Shown piece by piece: positions 1-39,468 of a DNA stretch of 39,468 bases. Where the stretch lies: contig JAFMJW010000009.1 in assembly GCA_017853315.1 (NCBI GenBank), positions 1 to 39,468 of the forward strand, given 5' to 3'. The notes below the pieces were generated by a model, which worked only from the letters and a program-made list of their open reading frames with translations, was not told the DNA's origin and made no database searches. The DNA comes from Alphaproteobacteria bacterium. GTDB lineage: Bacteria; Desulfobacterota; Binatia; UBA12015. Position numbers and translations under genes: made by a program. How positions within the stretch are numbered: the stretch's first letter is position 1; every line of letters begins with the position of its first letter.

Positions 1-2
1 AC

Positions 3-3546: not shown

Positions 3547-3556
3547 CGAGGTGAGC

Positions 3557-4375
3557 ATGACCATCGATTGGCAGACGGTGAAGGAATACGAAGACGTCAC
3601 CTACCGGAAGGCCGACGGCATCGCGCGCATCGCGATCAACCGGCCCTCGGTCCACAACGCGTTTCGTCCCAAGACGGTGATGGAACTGATCGACGCCTTC
3701 GCGCACGTGCGCGAGGAGCGCGACGTCGGGGTCGTCATCCTGACCGGCGAGGGCGGTCGTGCCTTCTGCAGCGGCGGCGACCAGACCGTGCGCGGCGACC
3801 AGGGCTACGTCGGCGGCGACGGCGTGCCGCGTCTCAACGTCCTCGACCTCCAGAAGATGATCCGCAGCCTGCCCAAGCCCGTGGTCGCCATGGTCGCCGG
3901 CTGGGCGATCGGAGGCGGCCACGTGCTGCACGTGGTGTGCGACCTCACGATCGCGGCCGACAATGCCCGATTCGGCCAGACGGGCCCCAAGGTCGGAAGC
4001 TTCGACGCGGGCTTCGGCGCGAGCTACCTCGCGCGACTCGTCGGCCAGAAGCGGGCTCGCGAGATCTGGTACCTGTGTCGTCAGTACGACGCGCAGCAGG
4101 CGCTCTCCATGGGCCTCGTGAACGAGGTCGTCCCGCTCGACCGCCTCGAGGAGACGACGGTGCAATGGTGCCGCGACATGCTGCGCCACAGCCCGATGTC
4201 GCTGCGCTGCCTGAAGTCGGCCTTCAACGCGGAGACCGACGGCATGGCCGGCCTGCAGGAACTCGCGGGCAACACGACGCTGCTCTTCTACATGAGCGAG
4301 GAGGCGCAGGAGGGCCGCGACGCCTTCGTCCAGAAGAGGGCTCCCGACTTCGATCGCTTTCCCAGGCTCCCCTGA
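3557..4375 (+). CDS. menB: 1,4-dihydroxy-2-naphthoyl-CoA synthase MenB
   Basis: Crotonase-family enzyme that closes the second ring of the naphthoquinone from OSB-CoA. The motifs [46 protein letters not shown] and WYLCRQYDA are those of MenB and set it apart from ordinary enoyl-CoA hydratases. I prefer the ATG at 3557 because a GAGG lies five bases upstream (3548-3551). A GTG at 3551 would add two residues but would overlap that site. The 272 residues are the normal length. Only one base separates its stop from the menA ATG. Confidence 0.97.
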
Positions 4376-4376
4376 G

Positions 4377-5258: not shown

Positions 5259-6277
5259 CCTGGACGGTGACTCGCTTCTCGATCCCGTTGCGTCACCCTC
5301 GCGCCCTCGGCACCGACCTCCCCGAGCGGAACGGCTTCCTCCTCGAAGTCCGGGACGAGGACGGCCTCGTCGGTCGGGGCGAGGCGAGCCCTCCCTACTG
5401 GATCGACCGGTGCGACCTCGATGCCCTCGGCCGCGAGCTCGCGGGGTTCGCGGCGACCCGCGGTCGAGGGGACGCCGCTCTCGAGGTCGACGACGAGGGC
5501 ACGCGCGACTCGCTTTCGCCGGCCGCAACCTGCGCCGTGGAGACGGCCCTCCTCGACCTCGAGGCTCGCAGGCGTGCGTGCAGCGTCGCCGAGCTGCTCG
5601 GCGCAGAGTTGCCCGCCACGCTCGAGATCGGCGCGCTGGTCGGGGGCGACGGGCCGTCGGACGTCCACGCGCAGGCTCTCGAACGCCTCCACCGAGGCTT
5701 CCGCGTGCTGAAGCTGAAGGTCGGCGGACGCGGCGCCGCGCAGGAGATCGAACGCATCCGGGCGTTGCGCGACGCCGCACGCGGAACCGCGGGGATTCGT
5801 CTCGACGCGAACCGGGCCTGGGATGCCGCCACCGCGCTCGAAGTGCTCCGCGCGGTCGCCGACTGCGGCATCGAGATGGTCGAGGAGCCGCTGCGAGACA
5901 GCCCCGCACCCGAGCTCGCGCGACTGCGCCGCGAGACGGGCGTGCCGATCGCCCTCGACGAGTCCGTGACCGACCACCGGGCGATGGAAGCCTTCGCCGA
6001 GCGAGGGGCGTGCGACGTCGTCGTGCTGAAGCTCGTTCGCCTCGGAGGACCGCGGTCGGCGCTCGCGATGGCCCACCGGGCGCGCGAGCTCGGGTTCGAC
6101 GTGGCATGGACGGACTCGATCGAGACGCGCGTGGGTCGACAGGCGACCCTCCACGCAGCCGCCGCCGGTCCCGGAGCCCGTCGAGCCGTCGGCCTGGGCG
6201 GGGCCGCGATCCTGCTCGAGCCCGGCGAGGGAGAAGCCTGCGCGCGACTCGACGTGCGAGGCCCGGGGCTGGGATGA
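5255..6277 (+). CDS. menC: o-Succinylbenzoate synthase MenC
   Basis: Enolase-superfamily dehydratase converting SHCHC to o-succinylbenzoate. The barrel carries the KxK motif in VLKLKVGG, the metal ligands in RLDANRAW, MVEEPLRD and ALDESV, and the opposite-side lysine in VVLKLVRLGG, which is the full MenC active-site set. It is 340 residues long. The ATG at 5255 lies inside the menA stop region (ATGA) and the menC stop overlaps the menE ATG. Muconate-cycloisomerase or dipeptide-epimerase roles are possible for such folds in isolation, but the operon settles the assignment. Confidence 0.94.
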   Translation: MTWTVTRFSIPLRHPRALGTDLPERNGFLLEVRDEDGLVGRGEASPPYWIDRCDLDALGRELAGFAATRGRGDAALEVDDEGTRDSLSPAATCAVETALLDLEARRRACSVAELLGAELPATLEIGALVGGDGPSDVHAQALERLHRGFRVLKLKVGGRGAAQEIERIRALRDAARGTAGIRLDANRAWDAATALEVLRAVADCGIEMVEEPLRDSPAPELARLRRETGVPIALDESVTDHRAMEAFAERGACDVVVLKLVRLGGPRSALAMAHRARELGFDVAWTDSIETRVGRQATLHAAAAGPGARRAVGLGGAAILLEPGEGEACARLDVRGPGLG

Positions 6278-7761
6278 CCCGGCCTTCGAACGCGTGGGTG
6301 GAGATCCAGGCCGCGCGCCGCCCGCACGACGAGGCCGTCGCCTGGCGCGGGAACTCCGTCGACTGGTTCGAGTTGCGGGAGCGAGCCGAGAGCCTCGCCC
6401 GGCGACTCGACTCCGCGCTCGCCAGCCGACCGCGCGTCGTCGCACTGCTCGCTCGACCGAGCCTGCGATTTCTCGAGGTCCTCCACGCGGCGCAACTGGC
6501 CGGCGTGACGCTCGCCCCTCTCCCCGCGCGAGGAACGGAAGCGGACTGGCAGAGGATCCTCGCCTCGACGAAGCCGGGGCTCGTGTTGCACGGCTCCGAG
6601 TTCGACGAGGTCGCGGCGCGCCTGGGTCGCACGGCCGGCGGCCGCTGGCTCGACGTCGACGCGGGCCTCGACCGCGAACCGGCCGGCCGCGGCTCGTTGG
6701 CCCCGATCCTCCCCGATCACGCGTGGCTGCTCGTGCACACCTCAGGCACCACCGGCGTCCCGAAGGCCGTCGAGCTGCGCAACGACCAGCTCGCGGCGGC
6801 CGCAGCCGCGGTGATCGAGCGGCTCGGCTGCCGCCCGGGCGAACGCTGGCTCGCCGCGATGCCCATGCACCACGTCGGCGGGCTGAGCGTTCCGGTTCGC
6901 GCCGCGGTCGGCGGACTCGGCGTCGTCCTGCACGAGGGCTTCGACGCTTGCGCCGTGCGGCGCAGCCTCGACGCCGACGCGGTCGCATGGGTCTCGCTCG
7001 TCCCGACCATGCTCGCGAGCGTGCTCGACGTCGCCCCCGGTGAGCCCGCTCCCCGAGCCTTGCGCGGGGCGATTCTCGGCGGCGGACGCCTGCCCCCTCG
7101 CCTGGTCGACCGGGCCGCGGGACTCGGCTGGCCGCTCGTCGCCACCTACGGGATGACGGAGACGGCCGCGCAGGTGACGACCAGCCACGAGCGGGACGCC
7201 TCGGCGCATCCCGGCTCGGCGGGCCACCCGCTGCGGGGCATCGAACTGCGCATCGACTCGCCCGACCCCGACGGAGTCGGCGAGATCCTGCTTCGCGGGA
7301 CGCAGGTGTCCTCCGGCCATCGCGCCGGGGGCGCAGGCGCCGCGGAGACGGCACGCGACGACTGGCTGCGCACCGGCGACCTCGGACGCCTCGACGACGA
7401 GGGACGCCTGTGGGTGGAGACGCGGCGGACCGACCTCGTCGTCACCGGCGGCGAGAACGTGCGGCCCGAGGAGATCGAGGACCTGCTGATGGAACACCCG
7501 GGCGTCGTCGATGCGGGCGTCTTCGCCGTCGAGGACGAGCACTGGGGCCAGCTCGTCGCCGCGGCGCTCGTCGTGGCCCCGGACGCGCCGAACGACGACG
7601 AACTGGCCACGTGGTGCCGCGCGCGGCTCCCCGGCTTCAAGGTCCCGCGACGATGGATTCGCCTCGACCGCCTGCCGCGCAACGCCGCGGGCAAGCTCGA
7701 ACGACTGCGGCTCCGCCGGCTCGCTGCCCCTTCGAGCGAAGCGACCGTGGGCGAACGGTGA
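6274..7761 (+). CDS. menE: o-Succinylbenzoate-CoA ligase MenE
   Basis: ANL-superfamily adenylating enzyme that makes OSB-CoA, the MenB substrate. The signature motifs occur in order: HTSGTTGVPK from residue 155 (phosphate loop), YGMTETAAQV, RTGDLGRLDDEGRL, TRRTDLVVTGGENVRPEEIE (hinge and swivelling lid) and the C-terminal catalytic lysine in NAAGKLERL. It is 495 residues long. It starts within the menC stop (ATGA) and is the last gene of the operon; a strong inverted repeat begins ten bases after its stop. Enzymatic order and gene order differ, which is common in men operons. Confidence 0.95.
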   Translation: MTRPSNAWVEIQAARRPHDEAVAWRGNSVDWFELRERAESLARRLDSALASRPRVVALLARPSLRFLEVLHAAQLAGVTLAPLPARGTEADWQRILASTKPGLVLHGSEFDEVAARLGRTAGGRWLDVDAGLDREPAGRGSLAPILPDHAWLLVHTSGTTGVPKAVELRNDQLAAAAAAVIERLGCRPGERWLAAMPMHHVGGLSVPVRAAVGGLGVVLHEGFDACAVRRSLDADAVAWVSLVPTMLASVLDVAPGEPAPRALRGAILGGGRLPPRLVDRAAGLGWPLVATYGMTETAAQVTTSHERDASAHPGSAGHPLRGIELRIDSPDPDGVGEILLRGTQVSSGHRAGGAGAAETARDDWLRTGDLGRLDDEGRLWVETRRTDLVVTGGENVRPEEIEDLLMEHPGVVDAGVFAVEDEHWGQLVAAALVVAPDAPNDDELATWCRARLPGFKVPRRWIRLDRLPRNAAGKLERLRLRRLAAPSSEATVGER

Positions 7762-23601: not shown

Positions 23602-24765
23602 TCACCGCCCTCCCGCGCGGGGCCCGCCTGCGACCCGGTCGCCCAGCACCGCGAGGATCGCCCGGGCGACGATCTCGTTCCCCTGCGGAGTGACGTGCAC
23701 CGGGTCGGTGTACACCTGCTCGGTCGTCCCCTCGAACACGCGCGAGAGGTCCGTCTCGTCGGGCTTCCCTCCGTCGGCGACGAGCACGTTCGCCTGCTCG
23801 ACCATCTCGAGGAACGCCGGGACCCTACGCTTCTCGCGCGCCAGGATCGCCTGCTCTCCGGGCGCCAACGGCTTTCGTCCGGCGAGGAGGCAGGGCTGCC
23901 AGAAGAAGTGCGCCGCGAACCCGAATCGGGTCGCGATTCCCCGGACGATCTCGCGATTCACCCGGAGGACGCGGATCGCCTCCAGGACGAGTTCCGGGTC
24001 CCCCTGCCTGCGACGACCGTTTCTCGCCCGGAGCGGCCGGGCCGCGTCCAGCCTGCCCGCGAGACCCGGCGCGAACCATCTCAGGAGCTCCCGGAGCGAA
24101 CGCTCCGGCGCACGCCTCGCACCGCGACCTCGCCCCTCGCGTTCGAACAGCGCCGTGATTCTCGGGAGTTCCGCGTGACCGTAGGGATCGCCGTTGTCGA
24201 ACGCGAGATCGAGATCGTTCGCGCCGTCGTAGAAGACGGCAACGTCCGGAACTTCCCCTCTCTGGAGGGCCCTCACGAGTTCGATCACTTCCTGGGTCGA
24301 GCCCCACGCACCCTCGCCGAAGTTGCGCACGCACGTCGCCGTCGTCGATCGCTCGCGCATCCCGGAGAGGAAGAGGGCCGGGATCGTGCCCCCGTCCGGC
24401 GAACTCGTGCCCCACATCGTCGAGCCGCCGAAGAACCACACCTTCTTCGCACCCGGCGAACAATCGGACCCGGGCACGACACGAAGTCGGTCCGGCCCCA
24501 CGTTGACCGTCTCGCTCGCGTAGGGGGGGCGCCGCCACACGGTGAACGGCTCGTAATGCACCTTTCCCGTGCCCACGCCTTCCTGGTCCGCGATGAAGCG
24601 GGCCGTCCAGGACTGCCGCTCGTAGTAGGGGATCCCGGCGAGGCCGGCGGACGGGGAGGCGACCGGGGGAGAACCCGTCAGCGCGTCGACGATCGACAGC
24701 GCCACGGCCACCGCGAGGAGCCCGCAGGCGAGCGACACGTAGACTCGTCCCAGCACCTTCAGCAC
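23602..24765 (-). CDS. Membrane-anchored SGNH/GDSL-type hydrolase, copy A
   Basis: A protein of about 387 residues with one N-terminal membrane helix (VLGRVYVSLACGLLAVAVAL) and an extracytoplasmic SGNH domain. The blocks are FFGGST with Ser115 as nucleophile, NFGEGAWGSTQE with the oxyanion glycine, VFYDGANDL (GxND) and YTDPVHVTPQG with Asp354 and His357. Relatives often act as acyl-ester hydrolases or O-acetyl transferases on surface polysaccharides, so a cell-wall or exopolysaccharide role is likely but inferred. The start is uncertain: the GTG at 24765 matches the N-terminus of copy B, though its GAGGAG is too far upstream. Copy B lies 124 bases upstream, and the two look like a recent tandem duplication. 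Confidence 0.75.
   Translation of the reverse strand: MLKVLGRVYVSLACGLLAVAVALSIVDALTGSPPVASPSAGLAGIPYYERQSWTARFIADQEGVGTGKVHYEPFTVWRRPPYASETVNVGPDRLRVVPGSDCSPGAKKVWFFGGSTMWGTSSPDGGTIPALFLSGMRERSTTATCVRNFGEGAWGSTQEVIELVRALQRGEVPDVAVFYDGANDLDLAFDNGDPYGHAELPRITALFEREGRGRGARRAPERSLRELLRWFAPGLAGRLDAARPLRARNGRRRQGDPELVLEAIRVLRVNREIVRGIATRFGFAAHFFWQPCLLAGRKPLAPGEQAILAREKRRVPAFLEMVEQANVLVADGGKPDETDLSRVFEGTTEQVYTDPVHVTPQGNEIVARAILAVLGDRVAGGPRAGGR
23690..23763. repeat. 74-base block repeated at 24978-25051 (SGNH copy A)
   Basis: This block, coding for the Asp/His end of the active site, matches 24978-25051 in SGNH copy B with one mismatch (C/T at the codon before ACGCGCG). The surrounding DNA has diverged much more. 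Confidence 0.85.
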
Positions 24766-24889: not shown

Positions 24890-26077
24890 CTAGGGCATGC
24901 CCTCGCCGGACCCGCTCGCGATCTTCTCGCCGATCGCGCGAACCATGGCGCGGACGACCAGTTCGTTCCCCCGTGGCGTGACGTGCACCGGGTCGGTGTA
25001 CACCTGCTCGGTCGTCCCCTCGAATACGCGCGAGAGGTCCGTCTCGTCGGGGGCTTGCCCGCTCGCCACGAGCGCATTCGCGAATTCGACCATCGAGAGA
25101 AACCCGGGGCGGTACCTCCGCGCCGATGCCATCATTTGCTCCTCGCCCGGGGCGAGCGGCTTGCGCCCCGCGACCAGGTACGGCTGCCAGAAGAAATGGA
25201 CTTCGAACCCGAATCGGCTCGCGAGCGCGCGCACGACTTCCCGGTTCAGGCGCAGGACGCGCACCGCCTCGGCCGCGAGTTCGCCGGGATCGAGCCGGTG
25301 ACCGGCCGCTTGCTCCGGCGCGACGGGCCACGCCTGGTCGACCCGTGCCGCGAGGTTCGGTGCGAACCAGCGCAGGAGTTCGCTCGGCGAGCGCTCGACC
25401 CCGCGACCGCCCCCCCGACTGCGGCGGGAACGATCGAATTGCCTCCTCACGATCGCGAACTGCGCGTGGCCGTAGGGGTCTCCGTTCTCGAACGCGAAGT
25501 TGAGGTCGTTCGCCCCGTCGTAGAACACGGCGACGTCGGGCAACTCGCCCCGCTGCAGGGCCTTCACGAGCGCGATCACTTCCTGCGTCGAACTCCAGGC
25601 CGACTCGCCGAAATTGCGGACGCACAGCGGCGCGGTCGTGCGCTCGTGCATCTCGGCCCGGAAGAGCGCGGGGATGGTCGCCCAGTCGGGCGAACTCGTT
25701 CCCCACATCGACGAGCCGCCGAAGAACCAGATCTTCCTCGCACCCGGGGTGCAGTCCGAGCCGGGCACCACGCGCTGCCGATCCGGCCCGACGTTCACCG
25801 TCTCGCTGGCGTAGGGCGGGCGCCGCCACACGGTGAACGGCTCGTAGCGCACCCTCGCCGAGCCGATCGCGTCCTGGTCCGCGACGAAGCGGCCCGTCCA
25901 CGCCTGGCGAGCGTAGTAGGGGATCGAGGCAAGTCGTCCCGAGTAACTCGTGCCAGGCACGTACCCGACGATCACGTCGGCGATCGGGAGCAGCAGGGCC
26001 GCGGCCAGGAGCCCGCAGGCCAGGGCGATCATGGCCCGGACGAGCCCCCGACCGATGCGACCGAGTCGTTCGAGCAC
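24890..26077 (-). CDS. Membrane-anchored SGNH/GDSL-type hydrolase, copy B
   Basis: A close paralogue of the downstream gene, about 395 residues. It has an N-terminal membrane helix (MIALACGLLAAALLLPIADV), then YYARQAWTGRFVADQ and YEPFTVWRRPPYASETVNVG shared almost word for word with copy A. The catalytic blocks are FFGGSSMWG with Ser122, NFGESAWSSTQE, VFYDGANDLNF and YTDPVHVTPRG with Asp362 and His365. The GTG at 26077 mirrors the copy A start; an ATG at 26032 would begin inside the membrane helix. Both copies keep all active-site residues, so both are probably functional. It is divergent from lemA. Confidence 0.75.
   Translation of the reverse strand: MLERLGRIGRGLVRAMIALACGLLAAALLLPIADVIVGYVPGTSYSGRLASIPYYARQAWTGRFVADQDAIGSARVRYEPFTVWRRPPYASETVNVGPDRQRVVPGSDCTPGARKIWFFGGSSMWGTSSPDWATIPALFRAEMHERTTAPLCVRNFGESAWSSTQEVIALVKALQRGELPDVAVFYDGANDLNFAFENGDPYGHAQFAIVRRQFDRSRRSRGGGRGVERSPSELLRWFAPNLAARVDQAWPVAPEQAAGHRLDPGELAAEAVRVLRLNREVVRALASRFGFEVHFFWQPYLVAGRKPLAPGEEQMMASARRYRPGFLSMVEFANALVASGQAPDETDLSRVFEGTTEQVYTDPVHVTPRGNELVVRAMVRAIGEKIASGSGEGMP
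24978..25051. repeat. 74-base block repeated at 23690-23763 (SGNH copy B)
   Basis: Direct-repeat partner of the block in SGNH copy A with a single mismatch. A second conserved stretch surrounds the ETVNVGPDR coding region in both copies. Confidence 0.85.
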
Positions 26078-28801: not shown

Positions 28802-30236
28802 CGAGGCGCGCGCAGGGCACGAACCCCGTCGCCGGCGGGTCATCGAGCCCGCGATCGCCTCCGCGAGAACCCGTGTCTTCGCCGTCGGCTGGGCGATCGC
28901 GGCCATCTACGACAAGCTCTGGTGGAAGCACTGGTCCGGAGTCCCTTCGAACTTCGCGCTGGTCGCAGCCGGGCTCCTGCTGATCGCGAGGCCCGAGTCC
29001 GCCGCCGTGCTGCTCGCGTTTGCCGCCGTGCAGGTCGTGGACTGGTCCTTCGAGCCGACGGTCATGGGCGGACACTTCCTGCTGCTTGCCTCCGTGAACG
29101 CGTCGATCCTCGTGACCGGGACCTGGATGCTCGCGACCGGCCGCTTGCGCACGGACGACGGCCCCGCGCTCCTGAACACGGCCGCGCCCGCGCTGCGCAC
29201 GGAGTTGATCGTCGCCTACCTGGTCGCGACCCTCCACAAGCTCAACCTCGACTTCCTCGACCCGGGAACGAGCTGCGTCGCGGTGCTCCTGCACGAGGCG
29301 AACGAGCAGGCCCTGCCGCTGCGGTTCCTGCCCCGGGTCCCGGACGGTCTCGTCCGGCCCGCCATTCACGCGACGCTCTTCGTCGAGGCGGCGATTCCCC
29401 TCCTGCTCTGGTTGCGACGCGGGCGCACGGCGGGAATCGGGCTCGCACTCCTCTTCCATTCCCTCCTCTCGTCGGGGCCGCGCAACGGGTTCTCGGCCTT
29501 CGCCATCGTGATCCTCCCGCTGCTCGTCCTCTTCTCGAGCGAGGCGAGCGCGGCACGCCTCGTCGACGCGACGCGCGCCGTGAGGACCCGGCTGTCCGAA
29601 GGATTCGCAGGCCGCATGGGACCGTGGCTGGCGGGACTCGTGCTCCTCGTCGTGTCGGCGACGGCCGACCGGCTCGGGATGTACCGGCTCTTCCCGTTCT
29701 GGATCACCCTCGATCTGTCCCTCCTCGCCTTCTTCACCGCCGAGGTGCTCCACCACCGGGCCGACATCGGCGATGCGTCGCCCCGACTCTTCGACGTCGA
29801 GTCGGCGGTGCTCGCCGTGATGCCCGCCCTGCTGCTCGCGAGCAGCCTGCCGCCTTACCTGGGACTCAAGACGGAAGGCTCGTTCGCGATGTTCTCCAAC
29901 CTGCGCACCGAGGGACCGCACCCGAACTCGCTCGTCGTCCCGGGCGAGGCAAAGCTCTTCGGCCTGCAGGACGACCTCGTGGAAGTGAAGGACACCTCCG
30001 TTGCGGAACTCGAGCCGTTGGTCGGAAGAGGCGTCCGGGTGCCGTTCTTCCACCTGCGCAGCCTGCTCACACCGCATCCCGAGGGATCGGTCGTCTTCGT
30101 TCGCGACGGCCGGGAGATCCGCATCGATCGCGTCGACCGGCACCCGGACCTGCTGCCCCCGGTCCCGGGCTGGCAACGCCGCCTCCTGCCCTTCCGGGCG
30201 GTCGATGCCGAGGGGCCCCAGCGCTGCAGGCACTGA
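28782..30236 (+). CDS. Multi-pass membrane protein, HTTM-like
   Basis: About 484 residues with roughly nine hydrophobic segments in the first 370 residues and a soluble C-terminal part (about 370-484). TRVFAVGWAIAAIYDKLWW, AYLVATLHKLNLDFLDPGTSC and ALLFHSLLSSGPRNGFSAFA resemble the HTTM (vitamin-K-carboxylase-like) membrane family by eye, but no catalytic assignment is possible. No start fits without overlapping the preceding gene; the GTG at 28782 has AGGAGG eight bases upstream and overlaps it by 20 bases. A hairpin follows its stop. It is probably the last gene of the lemA transcript. Confidence 0.55.
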   Translation: MAAAAGSEARAGHEPRRRRVIEPAIASARTRVFAVGWAIAAIYDKLWWKHWSGVPSNFALVAAGLLLIARPESAAVLLAFAAVQVVDWSFEPTVMGGHFLLLASVNASILVTGTWMLATGRLRTDDGPALLNTAAPALRTELIVAYLVATLHKLNLDFLDPGTSCVAVLLHEANEQALPLRFLPRVPDGLVRPAIHATLFVEAAIPLLLWLRRGRTAGIGLALLFHSLLSSGPRNGFSAFAIVILPLLVLFSSEASAARLVDATRAVRTRLSEGFAGRMGPWLAGLVLLVVSATADRLGMYRLFPFWITLDLSLLAFFTAEVLHHRADIGDASPRLFDVESAVLAVMPALLLASSLPPYLGLKTEGSFAMFSNLRTEGPHPNSLVVPGEAKLFGLQDDLVEVKDTSVAELEPLVGRGVRVPFFHLRSLLTPHPEGSVVFVRDGREIRIDRVDRHPDLLPPVPGWQRRLLPFRAVDAEGPQRCRH

Positions 30237-30243
30237 CACGGGG

Positions 30244-30262
30244 GCGATCTTCGGGGGATCGC
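30244..30262 (+). terminator. Hairpin after the HTTM-like gene
   Basis: GCGATC (30244-30249) pairs with GATCGC (30257-30262) across a seven-base loop, eight bases after the stop at 30236. It is short and has no T-run, so termination is only probable. Confidence 0.35.
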
Positions 30263-30351
30263 GGACTCGGAAGCCTTCCGGCACGAGGCGTCCGGGAGAG
30301 GTAGAGACGGGACACGTCCAGGCGCGTCCGCCCGGGCGAGCCGACCGACCG

Positions 30352-31113
30352 ATGCCGCCTCTTCCCGCGATGTCCCCCGAGTTCGACGCGCTCGCCGCCG
30401 ACCTGCGCTCGGCGAGCGGCGGGCGCCCGGTCGTCTGGCTACCGAACCCCGGGAACTGGGGTGCCGCCCTGACGCGCGCGGCCACGCGCGAGTTCCTCGT
30501 GGCGCACGACATCGCCTTCCGCGAGGTGGGCCGCATCGGACGCGCGGATCTCCTGCGCGCGCTCCTGGCCCGCGACGTGCTCGTGCACGGCGGCGGCGGC
30601 GCATGGAGCGACCGCTTCCCCGGCGCGTGGCTGGCCGTCCGTCGCGCGGCACCGTGGTTCCGCCGCACGATCGTCCTGCCGTCGGCGTACGGTCGCCCGG
30701 TGCGGCTCGATCGCTGCTCGCTGTGGGCGCGCGATCGCGGAGCGAGCCTCGCCTTCGCGCCCGCCGCCCGATTCTGCCACGACCTGGGCTTCTTCCCGGG
30801 AAGGACCGACGCGCCCGGCGGCGAGGGCACGGGGTGGTTCCTGCGCGACGACGTGCTGTCGCGCGCGTCGGGGCCGGGCGGCCCGCGCGCTCCCGACCTG
30901 AGCAGCCGGGGCGACCAGCTCTCGCCGCTCGAGCCCTTCCTCGCCGAGATCGCCCGCTTCGCGGAGATTCACACCGACCGGGTCCACGTCGCGATCGCGG
31001 CGTGCCGCATCGGGCGCCGGGTCCACGTGCACGCGGTCGACGGCCCGATGCTCTCGGACCTCTTCGAGGCGAGCATCGCCCCCTTCTTTCCCGGCGCCGT
31101 CCTTCACCGGTGA
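30352..31113 (+). CDS. Polysaccharide pyruvyl transferase-like protein
   Basis: A 253-residue protein. The N-terminal PVVWLPNPGNWGAALTRAATREFL (loop at about residues 30-45), the VLVHGGGGAWSDRF loop and the late TDRVHVAIAACRIGRRVHVH match the CsaB/WcaK-type polysaccharide pyruvyl transferase pattern: an N-terminal glycine loop, a GGG loop and an RxH-type motif. It is shorter than the usual 300-400 residues. Such enzymes put ketal-linked pyruvate on cell-wall or exopolysaccharide sugars. The ATG at 30352 is preferred; an in-frame ATG at 30370 is also possible. It is convergent with the sulfotransferase, 22 bases apart. Confidence 0.65.
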   Translation: MPPLPAMSPEFDALAADLRSASGGRPVVWLPNPGNWGAALTRAATREFLVAHDIAFREVGRIGRADLLRALLARDVLVHGGGGAWSDRFPGAWLAVRRAAPWFRRTIVLPSAYGRPVRLDRCSLWARDRGASLAFAPAARFCHDLGFFPGRTDAPGGEGTGWFLRDDVLSRASGPGGPRAPDLSSRGDQLSPLEPFLAEIARFAEIHTDRVHVAIAACRIGRRVHVHAVDGPMLSDLFEASIAPFFPGAVLHR

Positions 31114-31135
31114 CGGCCCGCCGCGGCCGCGGCCC

Positions 31136-31918
31136 TCAGGACTCGAAGCCGAACCAGGCGATCTCGCGCGCGAAGACGCGCGCGATCTTGTCGCGGTCGG
31201 CCGGGGAGAGCGCCTCGCGGTAGCCCGCCGTCTTCGGGCGGGATCCGGACTTGGCGCGGGGCAGCGGTGGAAGGTCGCGGATCCCGAGATGCTCGGCGAC
31301 CGAGCGCAGTTCCTCGTCGAGGCGCTCGAAGCGCAGCACGCGGTCCACCACGACCTCGCCGTCGATCGAGTAGAGGTCGAAGCCGCGGACGAGGTTCGCA
31401 CGGCCGCTCTGCACGAACTCCGAGAGGCTCCGGTCGCCGACCGGCCGCATCTCGATCGTCCGGATCACCCCGTCGGCGTAGCGACCGAGCCCTCGGGCGA
31501 ACCCCGCGGGGTCGTCGCGGTACTGCGACTCGAGGTGTCGCCACCACCAGTAGGCCGAGACCACCTTGTCCCACGGGTTCCGCTCGACGCAGAACTTGAA
31601 GTAGGTCGCCCAGACCTCGGGATCGACGAAGCGGCGGATCTCGGCGGCACCCATGTGGTTCTCGAAGCGCAGGCGACGCCGCCGCGCGATCGCCTGCGCG
31701 AGATCGAGCGGCGTGTACTTCGAGAGCGGGACGAGCTCGTGCTGCGCGTCCCGGTAGCCGGCCCCGAGCGATTCCTTCAGTGCGCGGTCGTCGGGGTGCA
31801 CGACCGGCGTGATCACGTCGTCGGGACCGCACACCTTCGACAACGCGATCTCGATGCTGGTGCCCGCCGTCTTCTCGGTCTTGATGAAGATGAAGCGATG
31901 ACGGTGACTCAGGATCAC
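31136..31918 (-). CDS. Sulfotransferase family protein
   Basis: A 260-residue cytoplasmic enzyme of the PAPS-dependent carbohydrate sulfotransferase type. The 5'-phosphosulfate loop is seen near the start (FIFIKTEKTAGTSIEIAL), and the 3'-phosphate motif in FCVERNPWDKVVSAYWWW. A conserved late FERLDEELRSVAEHLG follows. The GTG at 31918 overlaps the stop of the upstream glycosyltransferase (GTGA) and gives exactly the family N-terminus. It is the last gene of the six-gene minus-strand operon. The acceptor is most likely a sugar or hydroxyl made by the operon, which is inference. No cysDNC/PAPS genes are in the window. Confidence 0.85.
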   Translation of the reverse strand: MILSHRHRFIFIKTEKTAGTSIEIALSKVCGPDDVITPVVHPDDRALKESLGAGYRDAQHELVPLSKYTPLDLAQAIARRRRLRFENHMGAAEIRRFVDPEVWATYFKFCVERNPWDKVVSAYWWWRHLESQYRDDPAGFARGLGRYADGVIRTIEMRPVGDRSLSEFVQSGRANLVRGFDLYSIDGEVVVDRVLRFERLDEELRSVAEHLGIRDLPPLPRAKSGSRPKTAGYREALSPADRDKIARVFAREIAWFGFES

Positions 31919-33090
31919 GCGGCTCCCCCGGTCGTCCACGGCGAAGCCGCGAGGTCCAGGTCGAGCGGGTCGCCCTGTCGACCGAGCAGGCCCGCGGCCC
32001 GGTGAAAGGCGCTCTCCGCGGCGCAGAGCCAGGTGGTCGTCCGCGCGAACGCCGCGGGGCGTGCCCGCGCGAGCATCGCCGGGCCGCCGAGCGTCGCGGC
32101 GAGACGGCGCATCTCCCGCCCGGTGCGCGGAGCGTCGGCGGGCCAGCCCAGGAGCGCCGCCTCCGACACCCGCCTCGGACCGTCTCCTCCGCCGGTCGCG
32201 AGCCAGCCGAGGAAGCGGACCGCGACGAGCACGAGTCCGTCGGGGCAGCCGCGCAGGTGAGCCTCGAGCGACCTCGCCGCGCCGCCCGGGGCACCGCCGT
32301 CGCGAAGCGCTTCGAGCAGGCGGGCGACGTCGCCGAGGATCGCCTCGCCGAAGCCCGCGGCCGCCTCCCGCCTCCCGGGCGGGAGTGCCTCCACCGCGTC
32401 GCGCGCGGACGAGCGGATCGCGGCGAGGTAGGCGAGGGGGTCGCGGCGGTGCACGGCACTGCGCGATCCCTCGGCGAGACGAACGCCGACCGTGCGCGAG
32501 GCCGAGACCGCGAGGGGACCGAGGGCCCCGAGCCGGAGCCATGCCAGCAGGTCGGCCGCGACCGCGCGATCCGCGGGCCATCCGCCGACGACATCGAGCG
32601 ACCCGCGGCGGAAGACGGCCATCGAAGGCGTGTCGATCACGGCGAAGGGGTACCACCGCCACGGATCGCGACGCACCGTCGGGCCGGGCACCGTCGAGAG
32701 CGCGAGTTCGGCTCGGCGATGGAAGGTGCGGCGTCGCCCGATCGCGGCCGGCGCATCGGGGTGCTCTCGGAGCGCGTCGAGGCACCGCGCGAGGTGCTGG
32801 GGATGCCAGAGGTCGTCCTGGTCGAGGAGGGCGACGAAGTCGCCGACGGCCTCCGCAAGCCCGAGCGCGCGAGCCCGGTTCGTGCCGAGACCACCGGCGG
32901 GCAGGACCCGCCACCCGGCGCGCGCCCGCAACCAGTCGCCCGAGCCGTCCGAGGAGCCGTCGTCGACCGCGATCCGCTCGACCTCGCCGTGCGTCTGCGC
33001 CTCGACCGACGCGACGGTCTCCTCGAGAAGCGGCAACCCGTCGTGCACCGGCACGATCACCGAGACGAGCGATCCGGTTCCTGTCGACAC
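31915..33090 (-). CDS. Glycosyltransferase family 2, copy B, with long C-terminal extension
   Basis: A 391-residue protein. The GT-A fold occupies about residues 8-215: VSVIVPVHDGLPLLEETVASV, VDDGSSDGSGDWL, GLGTNRARALGLAEA and the metal-binding LLDQDDLWHP (DxD region). The last 175 residues are helical and Arg/Ala-rich without a known domain. The GTG at 33090 follows GAGGGG at six bases, which overlaps the stop region of the dehydrogenase gene. This is the largest gap in the operon (11 bases). Donor and acceptor are unknown. Confidence 0.85.
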   Translation of the reverse strand: MSTGTGSLVSVIVPVHDGLPLLEETVASVEAQTHGEVERIAVDDGSSDGSGDWLRARAGWRVLPAGGLGTNRARALGLAEAVGDFVALLDQDDLWHPQHLARCLDALREHPDAPAAIGRRRTFHRRAELALSTVPGPTVRRDPWRWYPFAVIDTPSMAVFRRGSLDVVGGWPADRAVAADLLAWLRLGALGPLAVSASRTVGVRLAEGSRSAVHRRDPLAYLAAIRSSARDAVEALPPGRREAAAGFGEAILGDVARLLEALRDGGAPGGAARSLEAHLRGCPDGLVLVAVRFLGWLATGGGDGPRRVSEAALLGWPADAPRTGREMRRLAATLGGPAMLARARPAAFARTTTWLCAAESAFHRAAGLLGRQGDPLDLDLAASPWTTGGAA

Positions 33091-33101
33091 GCCCAAGCCC
33101 C

Positions 33102-34055
33102 TCAGTACCCCGCCGCCTGGTCGACGACGTGGAGCAGCGGCTCCCCGCGGACGAAGCGTCGCAGGTTCTCCTCGAAGAGCGGCTCCCATCGCCGCACTCC
33201 CGGCTCGAGGCTCCGTCCGACGTGCGGGGTGAGGAGCAGCCCCGGCACCGACCACGCGGGGTGATCGGGCCCGGCCGGCTCCTCGCGAAGCGTGTCGAGA
33301 CCGGCGCCGCCGAGTCGGCCCGAGCGCAGTCGCTCGAAGAGAGCGTCTTCGTCGAGCACCGCCCCCCGCCCGACGTTCACGACGATCGCGCCGGGCGCGA
33401 GCGCGTCGAGTTCCGCGCCGCCGATCGAGCCCTCGGTCGCGGCCGTGAGCGGCAAGGCGACGAGCAGCACGTCGGTCGAGGGCAGCTCCGCGCGCCAGGT
33501 CGCGGGCCCGTGCACCCGGACGCCTTCTCCGTCGGCCGCGGGCGCGCCCTCGTGGCGGCGGCGGACCCCCTGCACGGAGACGTCGAAGGCACGCAGCCGA
33601 CGACCGATCGCGCGACCGGTCTCGCCCCAGCCGAGCACGAGCGCGCGCGCTCCGGCGAGGGTCCGCAGGCTCCATCGATCCCAGCGACGCGCACCGAACG
33701 ACTCGACCGCGGAGCGAAGCCCGCGCGTCACGCCGAGGAGGAGCGCCATCGCGTGATCGGCGACCTCGTCCGCGTAGAGCCCGCGCGCGCACGTGAGCAC
33801 GACGCCGTCGAGCCGACCGCCGGCGCGCCGCAGGATCGGATCCACGCCCATCGAGCCCGACTGCACCCACCGCAGCCGGGTCGCGAACGGAAGCGACTGG
33901 AGGAGAAAGCGGTTCCCGAGCAGGGCGTCCGCGTCGGCGACCATCGCGCGCGCCTCCTCCTCGCTGCCGGCCACGACGACCTCCGACTCCGGCGCGACCG
34001 CCCGCAGCCGTTGCAGGTGCGCCGCCGACGCCTCGTAGGTGACGACGATCTTCAT
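33102..34055 (-). CDS. D-isomer-specific 2-hydroxyacid dehydrogenase
   Basis: A 317-residue NAD(P)-dependent oxidoreductase that interconverts 2-oxo acids and D-2-hydroxy acids. An N-terminal flavodoxin-like part (MKIVVTYEASAAHL) leads to the cofactor loop LVLGWGETGRAIG. The catalytic Arg is in NVGRGAVLDEDAL, Glu in DTLREEPAGPDHP and His in LLLTPHVGRS, so the set is complete. A typical specificity segment, RWVQSGSMGVD, precedes the core. The ATG at 34055 overlaps the aldolase stop (ATGA). Pairing with an aldolase that makes or splits 2-oxo acids suggests it reduces that product, which is inference. Confidence 0.9.
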   Translation of the reverse strand: MKIVVTYEASAAHLQRLRAVAPESEVVVAGSEEEARAMVADADALLGNRFLLQSLPFATRLRWVQSGSMGVDPILRRAGGRLDGVVLTCARGLYADEVADHAMALLLGVTRGLRSAVESFGARRWDRWSLRTLAGARALVLGWGETGRAIGRRLRAFDVSVQGVRRRHEGAPAADGEGVRVHGPATWRAELPSTDVLLVALPLTAATEGSIGGAELDALAPGAIVVNVGRGAVLDEDALFERLRSGRLGGAGLDTLREEPAGPDHPAWSVPGLLLTPHVGRSLEPGVRRWEPLFEENLRRFVRGEPLLHVVDQAAGY

Positions 34056-34909
34056 CGCGCCGCCGCCGGGGTTCGGGCCGAGTGGCCGAGGAGGGTGTCG
34101 AGCACCGCGCGGAGCTCGTCGTGATCGCGCCTCACGGCCTCGGGAGACCGCACGGCGAGCCGGGTCCACGCGGCGCGCATCTCCGCGACCGCCCGTCCGA
34201 GAGCCTCCCTCGGCACGTCGCGCAGGAACGAGCGCCGCAGGAAGGTGTAGTCGCAGCCGAGCCGGGAGAGCTCGGCCGCGAGCAGCCGCGAAGCGATCGG
34301 GAACCCGCCGCCGGGCAGCGTCATGCCGCCGAAGCCGAAGGCGACGTCACCGGTCGCTTCGCGGACCCGCTCGACGGTCCCGTCGCGCAGCCCCTCCCAG
34401 AGGCTCCGCGATCGTCGCTGGATGCCGAGGTCGTGCAAGCCGACGAAGACGCGACGGACGGGCTCGGCGGCCAGCCGGTCGGCATGGGCCACGGCCCACT
34501 CGGTCTCGATCATGAGGGCCAGGTCGACCCGTCCCGCGATCGCCTGCTGCGCGCGCCGGACGTCGTCGATCGACTCGACCATCGGCACGAAGACCTCGTC
34601 GGCGCCGGCGGCGACGACCTCCTCGATCTCGCGCTCCATCTCTCCCGGCCGGTTGTTGACCCGGCAGAGGATGCGCCGGTCGCCGACCGCCTCTCGACAA
34701 CGGCGCACGTCGGCAGGGACGTTGCGGTTGATCTCGGTGTCGGCCCCGGCCTGCCTCGCGTCCTTCCCGCTCGACTCGAGGTCGACGACGAACCCGTCGA
34801 CGCCCGCCGCGGCCGCGGCGCGCGCGTAGTCGGCGTCGTGAAAGAAGAGGTAGAGGCCGATCGTGCCCGCCGCGCCGCGGGTCGACGGCGGAGGATCCGC
34901 GGGCGTCAC
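34052..34909 (-). CDS. HpcH/HpaI-family aldolase (CitE-like)
   Basis: A 285-residue TIM-barrel, metal-dependent class II aldolase/lyase of the HpcH/HpaI-CitE family. Visible are GVDGFVVDLESSGKDARQAG (barrel strand with acidic ligand), CRVNNRPGEMEREIEEVVAAGADEVFVPMVES, LALMIETEWAV with the metal-binding Glu, and FVGLHDLGIQ with the metal-binding Asp. These enzymes join or split pyruvate or acetyl-CoA-type units and aldehydes. The GTG at 34909 overlaps the oxygenase stop. Residue choice does not show which substrate is used. Confidence 0.85.
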   Translation of the reverse strand: MTPADPPPSTRGAAGTIGLYLFFHDADYARAAAAAGVDGFVVDLESSGKDARQAGADTEINRNVPADVRRCREAVGDRRILCRVNNRPGEMEREIEEVVAAGADEVFVPMVESIDDVRRAQQAIAGRVDLALMIETEWAVAHADRLAAEPVRRVFVGLHDLGIQRRSRSLWEGLRDGTVERVREATGDVAFGFGGMTLPGGGFPIASRLLAAELSRLGCDYTFLRRSFLRDVPREALGRAVAEMRAAWTRLAVRSPEAVRRDHDELRAVLDTLLGHSARTPAAAR

Positions 34910-35787
34910 CGGTGCCTCGGCCCCTGCGATCCGCCCGTCGCCGGCGAGCGCTCGCCCGCGCCGAAGCGGCGGACGGCCTCGCGCGAGACCCTCCCGTAGC
35001 CTTCGTCGCCCGATTCGAGGTGGCGGAAGAGGGAGACGAAGGCCGCAGCGCGCCCGCCGAACCGGTCGAGCTCGAGCGGCTCCATCGGGTCGATGTCCGC
35101 GACGCCGTGGACCGTGCGCCCGTCGTAGACCAGCACGTCGCCGGCCTGCGCGAAGTCCTCGAAGGGGATGCGCCGCTCGTCGCGCTCCACGTAGGCCCCG
35201 CCCTCGCGGTAGTCGACGCCCTTCTCGGAGAGGAGGAAGAACACCTGGAAGTAGCCCATCTCCGACTCCTCGGTGACGAGCCGGGAGAACAGGTCGCGAT
35301 GCGGGACCATGAAACCGCCGCCGCGCGGGTACTGGTGGATGCGCGCGCAGGTGAACAGCCCGTCGTCGGTGCCCGCGACCGCGAAGTCGTCGGGCAGCCC
35401 GTAGAGCCGGTTGCGGAAGCGGGCGACCCGCGAAAAGGCGTCGCGCAGCCCGAAGACGTCCGGCGCGAAGATCGGGTTGTAGAGGATCCGGAGGAAGCGG
35501 CCCAGGGTGCGCCGCGTGTCCATGCCCGAGTTCGCACCGACCACGAGCTTCTGGAAGTTGCGCCGTACGGCCTCGGTGTCGCGCGGGTCGTGCTTGCGGT
35601 CGTTCGCGGGATCGAAGCCGCGCGCGATCCGCTCGTGGGCCGCTCGAATCTCCCGGCGGTCGAGCAGGCCGGTCACCCGGACGACCGATCGCTCCTCGAG
35701 CTGAGCGCGCAGGCGCTCGTAGTCGAGAGAGTCGAGTCCCGAGGCCCGGTGGGTCACCTCGGCGAGGAAGTCCGATGCCTCGCTCAT
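34906..35787 (-). CDS. 2-Oxoglutarate/Fe(II)-dependent oxygenase
   Basis: A 293-residue double-stranded beta-helix oxygenase. The iron triad is H163 and D165 in FMVPHRDLFSRL and H227 in YDGRTVHGVADID. R246 in DRFGGRAAAF is the probable 2-oxoglutarate anchor. The segments FFLLSEKGVDYREGGAYVE and FAQAGDVLVYDG are typical of phytanoyl-CoA/prolyl-hydroxylase-like members. It would hydroxylate or otherwise oxidise a carbon on the pathway intermediate. The ATG at 35787 has GGAGG seven bases upstream and overlaps the glycosyltransferase stop. Substrate unknown. Confidence 0.85.
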   Translation of the reverse strand: MSEASDFLAEVTHRASGLDSLDYERLRAQLEERSVVRVTGLLDRREIRAAHERIARGFDPANDRKHDPRDTEAVRRNFQKLVVGANSGMDTRRTLGRFLRILYNPIFAPDVFGLRDAFSRVARFRNRLYGLPDDFAVAGTDDGLFTCARIHQYPRGGGFMVPHRDLFSRLVTEESEMGYFQVFFLLSEKGVDYREGGAYVERDERRIPFEDFAQAGDVLVYDGRTVHGVADIDPMEPLELDRFGGRAAAFVSLFRHLESGDEGYGRVSREAVRRFGAGERSPATGGSQGPRHR

Positions 35788-36701
35788 GGAGAGGCCTCCG
35801 CGGTCGGCTCTCCGCCGAGCAATTCCGCCACGAAGCCGACGGCGTTCGCACCCTGCCACGCCAGGAGGAGCCCTGCCGCGCGAGAGTGCCAGGCGAGGGA
35901 GCGTCCCCGGGGCGCGAGCCGCCGGTACGCCGTCGCGAAGTTCGAGTAGAAGCCGAGGTCCTGGCCGAGGCTCCCCGACCCGCGCGCGCGGCGCGTCGCA
36001 TGGTAGCGAAAGGCGCCCCGCCCGTAGCGGGCGTGAAGCCGCAGGAAGTCGACGAGCCCCTGGCGGTGGAAGTGCTCGACCTCGGCGTCGGGAACCCAGG
36101 TCATCGGACGCCCTTGCGCCCGCCAGCGGTCGCAGAACTCGCGGTCCTCGGACGCGACGCGGAAGGAGGGATCGAACCCGCCGCTGGCGAGGAACGGCCC
36201 TCGGCCGCAGGCCATGTTGTTGCTCGCGAAGAATCTCGGCCCTGCTCCGGCGCGGTTGTAGAAGTCGTAGGCGATCGACACGATGAGCTGGCTCACCTCG
36301 GGGCAGAGCTCGCCGTCGAGACCGTTGCGCGTCGCCCCTCCGGCGAGCACGTCCGGATCGCGTCGCACGGCAGCGACCAGCCCGCCGAGCCACGCCGGCG
36401 TCGGCACGCAGTCGTCGTCGATGAACGCCAGGATCTCGCCGCGGGCGGAGGCCGCACCGAGGTTGCGCGCCACGCCCGGACCCGCGTTGTCCTGCCGGAG
36501 GACCCGCAGCTCGAAGCGGCCACGCGCGAGCGAGGAATCGAGAACCACGGGCTCCGGGGATCCGTCGTCCACCACGACCACCTCGAACTCGCCCGCCTCG
36601 GCCGACTGGCGCGAAAGCCCCTCGATGCAGCGGGCGAGCGCGCCCGGACGCGCGAAGCTCGGGATCACGACGGTCGTCGACGGAGACATCATCGCTGCCA
36701 T
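35784..36701 (-). CDS. Glycosyltransferase family 2, copy A (first gene of operon)
   Basis: A 305-residue GT2 enzyme. TTVVIPSFARPGALARCIEGL, VVVVDDGSPEP, GPGVARNLGAASARGE and the DxD motif in LAFIDDDCVPTP form the GT-A core. SEDREFCDRWRAQGRP and VEHFHRQGLVDFL are the acceptor-side elements of rhamnosyl- or galactosyl-type GT2 members. The C-terminus has a helical stretch (AAGLLLAWQGANAVGFVAELL) that may touch the membrane. The start is uncertain among three near ATGs (36701, 36692, 36689). It is divergent from the TetR gene across 92 bases, which must carry the operon promoter. Confidence 0.88.
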   Translation of the reverse strand: MAAMMSPSTTVVIPSFARPGALARCIEGLSRQSAEAGEFEVVVVDDGSPEPVVLDSSLARGRFELRVLRQDNAGPGVARNLGAASARGEILAFIDDDCVPTPAWLGGLVAAVRRDPDVLAGGATRNGLDGELCPEVSQLIVSIAYDFYNRAGAGPRFFASNNMACGRGPFLASGGFDPSFRVASEDREFCDRWRAQGRPMTWVPDAEVEHFHRQGLVDFLRLHARYGRGAFRYHATRRARGSGSLGQDLGFYSNFATAYRRLAPRGRSLAWHSRAAGLLLAWQGANAVGFVAELLGGEPTAEASP

Positions 36702-36793: not shown

Positions 36794-37510
36794 ATGGCGT
36801 CGACCACCTGGACCCCGCTCAAGAAGGCGATCCTGGAGGCGGCCATTCGCCAACTCGCCAGGAGCGGCGAGGCCTCCCTTCGGGTCGACCGGATCGCGAG
36901 GGAGGCCGGCTGCTCCGCGGCCCTGCTCTACCGCCACTTCGAGAGCCGCGAGGGACTCCTGGAGGCCGCCATGGTCGAGCGGCTTCGGCGGGAGGCGGCC
37001 GCGATCACGAAGGACCTGCTGCGGGCCGTGGAGCAGAGCCGCGACACCGGGGACTTCGTCCGGATGGACGTCGCGATCTCCCGCGAGACCCACGGACGCC
37101 ACCGGGCGCGCAACCGCGCGATCATCGCCGAGGTGCTTGCCGCGTCGCGCACCCGCCCCGCCCTTCGCAAGGAATTCCTGCAGCAGCAGCGGGAAGTCCA
37201 GCGCGCCCTGGCCGAGCTGGTGGGCGCCGGGCAGGCGAAGGGCATCTTTCGCGCCGACGTCTCGGCCGAGGCGATCGCCGAGTTCGTCCGGGCCTACACC
37301 TTCGGCCGAGCCCTGATGGACGCCGACCCGGATTCGGTCGATCGTCTCGAGGAGTGGGTCCGGATCGTCGCCATCTTCGTCGAGAGCCTGCGCCCCGCTC
37401 CGGGAGGCGCGCCCGCCCAAAAGCGCGTGCGGCGGGAGACCTCGGCCGCCCCGGTCAAGAAGGCCGAGGTCGGCCCGCCTCGTTCGCGACGCGTGCCGAA
37501 GACCCGCTGA
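36794..37510 (+). CDS. TetR-family transcriptional regulator with basic C-terminal tail
   Basis: A 238-residue repressor-type protein. The N-terminal helix-turn-helix is clear (about residues 8-54): KKAILEAAIRQLARSGEASL, VDRIAREAGCSAALLYRHFESREGLLEAAM. A helical ligand-binding and dimer domain follows to about residue 195. The last 40 residues are Pro/Arg/Lys-rich and unusual for the family. The ATG at 36794 gives the normal spacing to the HTH; an in-frame ATG at 36707 would cross the shared promoter. Divergent placement suggests it controls the six-gene operon and itself. The ligand is unknown. Confidence 0.88.
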   Translation: MASTTWTPLKKAILEAAIRQLARSGEASLRVDRIAREAGCSAALLYRHFESREGLLEAAMVERLRREAAAITKDLLRAVEQSRDTGDFVRMDVAISRETHGRHRARNRAIIAEVLAASRTRPALRKEFLQQQREVQRALAELVGAGQAKGIFRADVSAEAIAEFVRAYTFGRALMDADPDSVDRLEEWVRIVAIFVESLRPAPGGAPAQKRVRRETSAAPVKKAEVGPPRSRRVPKTR

Positions 37511-38007: not shown

Positions 38008-39087
38008 GTGGCCGCCCCGGTCCTGGTGCTTCTCGCGACGGCAGGGGCCGCCCTGGCGATCGCGGCCTGGCTCGCGAAGGCGGCCATGCGCGTTGGCCGT
38101 CGATCGGGCGAGCGGCGGGCCCTCGCGGCGGCGGGAGCGCTCGCGGGGGTCGCCGTGGCCTGTGCGGCGCTGCTCGTGCGCGGGCCCGCTCCGGACGGAG
38201 ACCGCACCCTGTTCGTGGGCGGAGTCGCGACCGAGCCCTTCGTCTTCGTCGAGGGCATCCGGCGCCCGCTTCCCTCGCAGCAGATCCGCGCGGTGAAGCC
38301 GCCGACCGGCACGCCGGTCTTCGACGTGACCTACACGATCGACTCGTGGGGAAACCGGTCGGCGCCGGAGGCTCCCGGCCGTCCGGCGGTGGTCTTCTTC
38401 GGCTGCTCGTTCGCGTTCGGCAACGGGGTGGAGGACGACGAGACCCTGCCGTGGCAGTTCGCCCTCGACGTCGGACGGCGGTTCGACGTCGTGAACGCGG
38501 CGCTCTCGGGCTACGGCGCGCACCACGTGTTGCGGATGCTGGAGCTCGGCCTGCTCGACGGGCGCGTGCAGAGCGGCGTGGCCCGTGCGTTCTACTCGGC
38601 GATCCCGGATCACGTCCGCCGCGCCGCGCAGGGCCAGTCGTGGGACCTCGTCGGCCCCCGCTACGAGCTCGCGGGAGACGGGCTGCGTCTCGCCGGGCCG
38701 ATGAGGAGCCTCCCCGGGCGACTCTTCGTCGAGACGCTCCAGTACGCGCTCGGCCGCAAGTGGCGACCACCGTGGGAGGACGCGACTCCCGGCCCGGCCG
38801 ACGTCGAGCGGTGGGCGAGGATCGTCGCGCAATCGGCCGCTCTCGTCCGCGAGAGATGGGGCGCTCCGTTCACCGTCGTGATGTGGGACTTCGGGACGCC
38901 CCGGGGACGAGGACTCGGCGCGGAGCTGCGCAGACACGGGCTCGACGTCGTCCTCGTGAGCGAACTCCTCCCGCCGGCGAAGGTCCGCCTCATCCCCGGC
39001 GACGGACACCCGACGGCTTCGACCGACGCGGCCCTCGCTCGCGCCCTCGCCGAGAAGTACTTCCCGGGATCCGGGACTGCGGACTGA
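38008..39087 (+). CDS. Membrane-anchored SGNH-hydrolase-like protein, copy C
   Basis: A 359-residue protein with two N-terminal hydrophobic segments (about 4-22 and 38-58) and an extracytoplasmic SGNH-like domain. TYTIDSWGNRSA leads to FFGCSFAFGNGVEDDETLP with Ser134 as nucleophile, then NAALSGYGAHHVLRML with the oxyanion Gly, and PGDGHPTA with Asp332 and His334. The order matches copies A and B but sequence similarity is low, so it is not part of that tandem duplication. I see no clear GxND block; MWDFGTPRG occupies that region. The GTG at 38008 is the only upstream start and lacks a clear ribosome-binding site. A polysaccharide acyl-ester role is possible. Confidence 0.65.
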   Translation: MAAPVLVLLATAGAALAIAAWLAKAAMRVGRRSGERRALAAAGALAGVAVACAALLVRGPAPDGDRTLFVGGVATEPFVFVEGIRRPLPSQQIRAVKPPTGTPVFDVTYTIDSWGNRSAPEAPGRPAVVFFGCSFAFGNGVEDDETLPWQFALDVGRRFDVVNAALSGYGAHHVLRMLELGLLDGRVQSGVARAFYSAIPDHVRRAAQGQSWDLVGPRYELAGDGLRLAGPMRSLPGRLFVETLQYALGRKWRPPWEDATPGPADVERWARIVAQSAALVRERWGAPFTVVMWDFGTPRGRGLGAELRRHGLDVVLVSELLPPAKVRLIPGDGHPTASTDAALARALAEKYFPGSGTAD

Positions 39088-39145: not shown

Positions 39146-39152
39146 CCGGGAG

Positions 39153-39468
39153 TGGAGGCGGCGGGAATCGAACCCGCGTCCGAAGGAGCTCACCCGAACG
39201 TTTCTACACGCTTAGCCCACGATTTTCGTCATCCCGGCAGCGCCCGTGGGCGGGCTATGCCGAGACCAGCCGGGGAAGATTTGAGTCTCGGGCCTCCCGG
39301 CGGCAGCCCTCGACCGATCCCGCATTGTGTCGCCCGTTTCGACCCGGCAGGAGCGGACCGAGCGAGCGCCAGAAGACCTTAGGCCGCCTGGAGGGTGTTG
39401 AAATTATCCGCAGTTAGTCTGCGTGCCGGATGATTAACGAGGCCAACCGACATCCTCGGCGTGCTGCG
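39153..39468 (-). ncRNA. ssrA: tmRNA (ssrA), 5' end outside window
   Basis: Rescues stalled ribosomes together with SmpB. On the minus strand the 3' end reads GGACGCGGGTTCGATTCCCG followed by CCGCCTCCA, the tRNA-like T arm and acceptor arm. CCA is not encoded, since CTC follows the discriminator A at 39153. The tag frame runs from GCG at 39411 to TAA at 39381-39379 and codes ADNFNTLQAA. Upstream of it, CCGAGG...CGGTTGGCCTCG matches the first pseudoknot of known tmRNAs. About 316 bases are visible; some 40-60 at the 5' end are missing past 39468. It explains the AT-richer patch around 39400-39440. Confidence 0.95.

Follow-up and report, generated by a model that had tools for sequence, protein, structure and literature searches.

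The window, that is the whole 39,468-nucleotide stretch of DNA analysed here, carries on its minus strand (from 36701 down to 31136) a run of six intact genes coding for a family 2 glycosyltransferase (GT2a), a 2-oxoglutarate (2OG) oxygenase, a HpcH/HpaI-like barrel protein, a D-2-hydroxyacid dehydrogenase, a second family 2 glycosyltransferase (GT2b) and a sulfotransferase (Table 1). An earlier note, made from the letters alone, had described six genes joined by four four-base overlaps and one 11-base junction, and this arrangement is confirmed, the junctions from GT2a to the sulfotransferase measuring -4, -4, -4, +11 and -4 bases. The GC content reaches 70-77% per kb across the operon and both strands are rich in long spurious ORFs; for this reason the frames were checked with a codon-position gene caller, which chose the same six. 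The enzyme identities proposed in the earlier note were borne out as well, by Pfam matches for five of the six proteins and by the fold for the exception, the oxygenase. Of the 15 other pairs of same-strand neighbours in the window, 4 likewise overlap by four bases. Since such overlaps are not unusual there, they support a single transcript and nothing more, and the co-expression claimed by the note stands as a likely co-transcription predicted from the junctions. The divergent TetR-family gene starts 92 bp from the GT2a start and its product is a candidate regulator of the operon; no clear operator palindrome was found in the gap between the two genes.

Table 1. The six genes of the operon, in order of transcription, and the divergent regulatory gene.
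Feature	Coordinates	Strand	Product	Support
GT2a, family 2 glycosyltransferase (gene 1)	35784..36701	-	305 aa	PF00535 3.8e-25
Fe(II)/2-oxoglutarate oxygenase (gene 2)	34906..35787	-	293 aa	fold and HxD...H...R; family without Pfam/NCBIfam model
HpcH/HpaI-like PEP/pyruvate barrel protein, 'aldolase' (gene 3)	34052..34909	-	285 aa, GTG start	PF03328 1.6e-9
D-2-hydroxyacid dehydrogenase (gene 4)	33102..34055	-	317 aa	2-Hacid_dh_C 5.2e-39
GT2b, family 2 glycosyltransferase (gene 5)	31915..33090	-	391 aa, GTG start	PF00535 4.8e-24
PAPS-type sulfotransferase, Sulfotransfer_2 (last gene)	31136..31918	-	260 aa, GTG start	PF03567 2.4e-5
TetR-family regulator, divergent from the operon	36794..37510	+		TetR_N 1e-12

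The dehydrogenase aligns with 3hg7 with the GxGxxG motif and the catalytic Arg, Glu and His in place (GWGETG, NVGRG, EEP, TPHVG). The nearest solved relatives of GT2a are chondroitin synthase and PglI, and direct reading reveals DDD and ED motifs in its sequence. In GT2b, PF00535 spans residues 10-166 and the C-terminal part comprises about 200 residues; this protein matches heparosan synthase B (7e-8) and, again by direct reading, contains DQD but bears AAD in place of the usual ED, the glutamate being missing. Both glycosyltransferases match EPS/TuaG-type models and are not DPM1-like. The sulfotransferase scores 25.0 bits against Sulfotransfer_2 (cut-off 22), and its 5'-PSB and 3'-PB motifs were recognized by inspection as KTAGTS and RNPWDKVVSAY. 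It has full-length relatives sharing 32-35% identity in exopolysaccharide clusters of Sinorhizobium (pSymB) and Salipiger, and none among phages. The location of these relatives favours sulfation of the glycan itself. Their polysaccharide loci differ from the window in that the annotation of the parts examined names no 2OG/barrel pair.

The oxygenase has no match in Pfam or NCBIfam. Its AlphaFold model (mean pLDDT 71) matches 2OG oxygenases with a Foldseek probability of 1.00 and a Z score of up to 13.7 (201 residues aligned, rmsd 3.9), while H163-x-D165, H227 and R246 are invariant among its relatives. As modelled, the protein is a 2OG-fold enzyme with the iron triad HxD...H and the 2OG-binding arginine set on a double-stranded beta-helix.

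The barrel protein scores 37.8 bits against Pfam HpcH_HpaI (cut-off 25), and in profile comparisons with solved structures its nearest relatives are acyl-CoA lyase beta chains (3e-9) and HpcH/HpaI aldolases (4e-7). Its model (pLDDT 81) reaches a Z score of 22 to pyruvate-kinase barrels, of which fifty entries fill the list; judged from the model, such scores indicate a shared PEP/pyruvate barrel superfamily only. The protein belongs to the same superfamily as the HpcH/HpaI aldolases (GarL, HpaI, YfaU) and the citrate-lyase-beta/acyl-CoA lyases, and alignment with GarL reveals that it keeps D43, E45, R83, E135 and D160, among which E135 and D160 correspond to the metal-site Glu and Asp and R83 to the substrate Arg. 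It diverges from these aldolases at a histidine, the catalytic base of HpaI and GarL within the motif D-x-E-H-A-P-N-D, which is replaced by serine at a position that varies in the family. It also bears a family-specific inserted loop, GKxxRQ, of which G48, K49, R52 and Q53 are invariant throughout the family. The earlier statement that all active-site residues are present thus holds for the oxygenase, the dehydrogenase, the sulfotransferase and GT2a. It is wrong for the barrel protein as an HpaI-type aldolase because the catalytic His is missing, and doubtful for GT2b with its A-D for E-D.

Single-protein searches of phyla retrieved the oxygenase from the window genome only, and the barrel protein from the window genome together with weak catabolic homologues. 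As this was too little, profiles were required for both. A two-sequence oxygenase profile scanned against one genome per species (84,980 genomes) returned five loci, whose oxygenases share 96% identity with that of the window in the congener MAG REEB422, 55% in Lysobacter telluris, 55% in an Acidobacteriota MAG, 42% in Roseobacter and 36% in one further MAG; a search of plasmids gave two matches. Profile searches detected the oxygenase in 5 of 143 genomes from the window's class, in 2 of 162 from an Acidobacteriota order and in 1 of 198 from the Lysobacter family. Its distribution is rare and patchy. The barrel protein was found in 5 of 398 genomes of Pseudomonadota, in 4 of 247 of Acidobacteriota and in 6 of 148 from the window's class; included in this last figure are the window itself, the fragment in REEB422 and a single weak match.

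Phylogenetic analysis, from which L008 was left out as a miscalled neighbouring gene and no aldolase, revealed two types of barrel proteins. The first (L014, L038, L040, L041) is found in capsule-type clusters with varying sets of asparagine-synthase-like, sugar transferase, flippase and NeuB genes. The second groups seven sequences from glycan cassettes, including that of the window (support 96/100); within the tree, the window protein is nearer to sequences from Acidobacteriota than to the others from its own family. This placement bears on whether the middle genes might be a unit of catabolism or central metabolism, performing retro-aldol cleavage of a 2-keto-3-deoxy acid followed by reduction and lying by chance between the glycosyltransferases. 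HpcH/HpaI aldolases adjoining hydroxyacid dehydrogenases or reductases are indeed typical of sugar-acid catabolism, as for GarL and GarR, which are adjacent in E. coli. Yet the window protein is remote in the tree from both GarL and the CitE-like protein of its own genome, lacks the GarL catalytic His, occurs with its relatives in glycan cassettes rather than catabolic operons, and has neither a transporter nor a kinase gene nearby. We consider such a catabolic unit very unlikely.

The oxygenase clade and the barrel protein are encoded at most 4 kb apart in three distant lineages, namely those of the window, Lysobacter and the Acidobacteriota MAG. The oxygenase genes of Lysobacter telluris (L017) and of the Acidobacteriota MAG (L018) each lie 2.4-2.5 kb from the gene of a barrel relative (40-44% identity to the window's), and both loci also hold methyltransferase, NAD epimerase and GT2 genes. 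In the oxygenase tree, the four oxygenases co-localised with a barrel protein, which include that of the window and its near copy in REEB422, fall on one side of a branch with a support of 90/99, and 4 of 500 label shuffles were as low as observed. The earlier note had proposed conserved co-occurrence of the six families as a check; elsewhere, only the oxygenase and the barrel protein, along with a GT2, were found together, and in neighbourhood searches of the relatives the dehydrogenase and the sulfotransferase were never beside either of them. These searches support an oxygenase-barrel module as the conserved unit, and not a six-gene pathway.

The barrel protein also belongs to a wider cassette comprising one or two methyltransferases, the barrel protein, a large membrane protein, an NAD epimerase and a CsbB/DPM1-like GT2. 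In L054 and L056, which belong to the window's own family, the genes follow the order methyltransferase(s)-barrel-YfhO-epimerase-GT2 and the membrane protein matches the YfhO Pfam model, while the corresponding membrane proteins of L017, L018, L039 and L045 have no clear Pfam match. In multi-component transmembrane glycosylation, a GT2 couples the sugar to polyprenyl phosphate, from which a GT-C protein transfers it outside the membrane (PMC8035078). The cassette has the layout of such Gtr/CsbB-YfhO-like systems, with its CsbB/DPM1-like GT2 and its GT-C protein (the YfhO match of L054 and L056), and L019 also carries a GtrA-like gene, identified by inspection. The known CsbB-GtcA-YfhO/Gtr systems differ in having no barrel, 2OG or sulfotransferase genes. 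Furthermore, a polyprenyl-phosphate-sugar synthase GT2 and a GT-C protein share one locus in the cassettes of the relatives but not in the window, where no GT-C or flippase gene adjoins the operon and the GT2s are of the EPS/TuaG type.

More distant oxygenase relatives occur in other contexts, in which several genes were named by reading their sequences. Those of L070 and L071 lie inside an exopolysaccharide/dTDP-sugar cluster with sugar aminotransferase and acyltransferase-like genes, and those of L013, L015 and L019 accompany DegT aminotransferase genes, ATP-grasp genes, or an aminoacyl-tRNA-synthetase-like gene and a carrier protein gene. The relative of L069 is at a contig end, and the short contig of L020 shows no sugar genes around its own. 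In Roseobacter (L019, 8790-11045), the 2OG relative is directly flanked by an aminoacyl-tRNA-synthetase-like gene on one side and a small acyl-carrier-protein-like gene on the other, which suggests oxidation of a carrier-bound amino acid. Such neighbours, together with the ATP-grasp ligases of L013 and L015 and the aminotransferase and acyltransferase-like genes of L070 and L071, would fit an oxygenase whose substrate is an acyl or aminoacyl group carried by an amino sugar and not a carbon skeleton supplied by the barrel protein. This alternative appears rather unlikely for the window, given that its operon contains no aminotransferase, ligase or carrier protein gene and that the barrel-linked oxygenases form a separate branch. 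Another recurring context combines oxygenase relatives with an amidohydrolase and an ATP-grasp gene (L015, 4915-9764; L073, 821-3964), and a DRE-TIM aldolase-like gene is also found in the neighbourhood of L015.

The six-gene set and its order were found nowhere besides the window in neighbourhood searches. REEB422 (L016), from the same genus, exhibits about 96% protein identity and 92-96% DNA identity in the region, but its contig jumps from window position 29934 to 34720 and from 35957 to 36305, so that it lacks 29935-34719 (about 4.8 kb) and 35958-36304 (347 bp) with sharp joints. Five of the six genes are hit: the sulfotransferase, GT2b and dehydrogenase genes and most of the barrel gene are removed and GT2a is broken, the truncated barrel gene now adjoining an antisense HTTM gene. 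The joints share 2-3 bases of sequence (microhomology), too few for a false join by a k-mer assembler, and we therefore lean towards real deletions, a chimeric contig being the less likely explanation. A gene at 30370-31113, convergent to the operon, is also lost in REEB422. It carries GNWG and GGG motifs like those of polysaccharide pyruvyl transferases; as it has no Pfam match and BLASTP to one such protein gave E = 0.039, it was not counted as part of the operon. Another congener, 97% complete, lacks the oxygenase as well as the barrel protein, and its DNA matches to the operon are short chance-level pieces only. Together with the REEB422 deletions, this absence indicates that the operon is accessory and variable. 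Surface-glycan genes are often accessory and variable.

These observations raise the question of whether the operon is a chance or recent mosaic, its genes gathered by transfer in this lineage without acting on one molecule. Its singular gene set, its absence or decay in the two congeners and the affinity of its barrel protein for Acidobacteriota sequences would all agree with such an origin. Nevertheless, a mosaic seems unlikely in view of the oxygenase-barrel linkage in three lineages, the overlaps at four of the five junctions and the integrity of all six frames in the window.

For the oxygenase, the barrel protein and the sulfotransferase alike, most relatives reside in surface-sugar gene clusters, which supports a role in glycan decoration. 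We conclude that the six genes probably constitute an accessory operon building or decorating a cell-surface polysaccharide, although the lack of any polymerase, flippase, export or nucleotide-sugar gene adjoining the operon counts against it. The earlier note had suggested a glycan or a small molecule as the product; the first agrees with these contexts, while the second is not favoured since none of the genes adjoining the operon was recognized as an NRPS, PKS or ligase gene. Plausibly, the locus is a surface-glycan decoration operon of a kind known already, in which the combination is new. A precedent for a 2OG oxygenase hydroxylating a surface-glycan residue, likened here by function and not by sequence, is KdoO, the Fe(II)/2-oxoglutarate Kdo-3-hydroxylase of LPS, which acts after the Kdo transferase (PMC8533242); its cited description differs in including no linked barrel protein or sulfotransferase. 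Literature searches returned nothing relevant on such an aldolase, or such an enzyme set, in surface-glycan loci.

More tentatively, the oxygenase and the GKxxRQ-loop barrel protein could be an undescribed two-enzyme module that furnishes bacterial surface sugars with an uncommon hydroxylated acid or carbon branch. Such a module would have moved between phyla and joined various glycosylation cassettes, and in the window it would be combined with a hydroxyacid dehydrogenase and a sulfotransferase. In a reaction scheme that we regard as speculative, the barrel protein would make or break a C-C bond of a pyruvate- or PEP-derived unit, by putative aldol chemistry conducted without the HpaI/GarL His, and the dehydrogenase would reduce a 2-keto acid to a D-2-hydroxy acid, a slot that the epimerase may fill in the relatives. 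The oxygenase would hydroxylate the unit, GT2a and GT2b would place the sugar or sugars, and the sulfotransferase would cap a hydroxyl, leaving an acidic, hydroxylated and sulfated residue on the surface glycan; the order of these steps is guesswork. The module has no dedicated model in curated family libraries, the oxygenase having no library match at all and the barrel protein a weak general one only, and no function was found for it in the searchable literature. If our proposal is true, two enzyme families without their own Pfam/NCBIfam model supply uncommon surface-glycan chemistry, the product of which could be sought in a named isolate, Lysobacter telluris. The exact six-gene set of the window, local and variable, matters chiefly as a sulfated variant of this module.

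Other features were noted in the surroundings of the operon. A tmRNA gene (ssrA) is located at 39150-39468 of the window and at 2666-3020 of L016; in both congeners it lies 2.4 kb from the operon, towards which its 3' end points. The 3' ends of ssrA genes are common integration sites; no integrase gene was found among the called genes. Two tandem paralogues (23602-24765 and 24890-26077) match GDSL lipases weakly, and inspection revealed a third gene, SGNH-like, at 38008-39087; these GDSL/SGNH-like genes possibly encode glycan O-acyl enzymes. Finally, sequence reading identified a menaquinone biosynthesis cluster at 1-7761, with the gene order menF, D, H, B, A, C, E and four-base overlaps.
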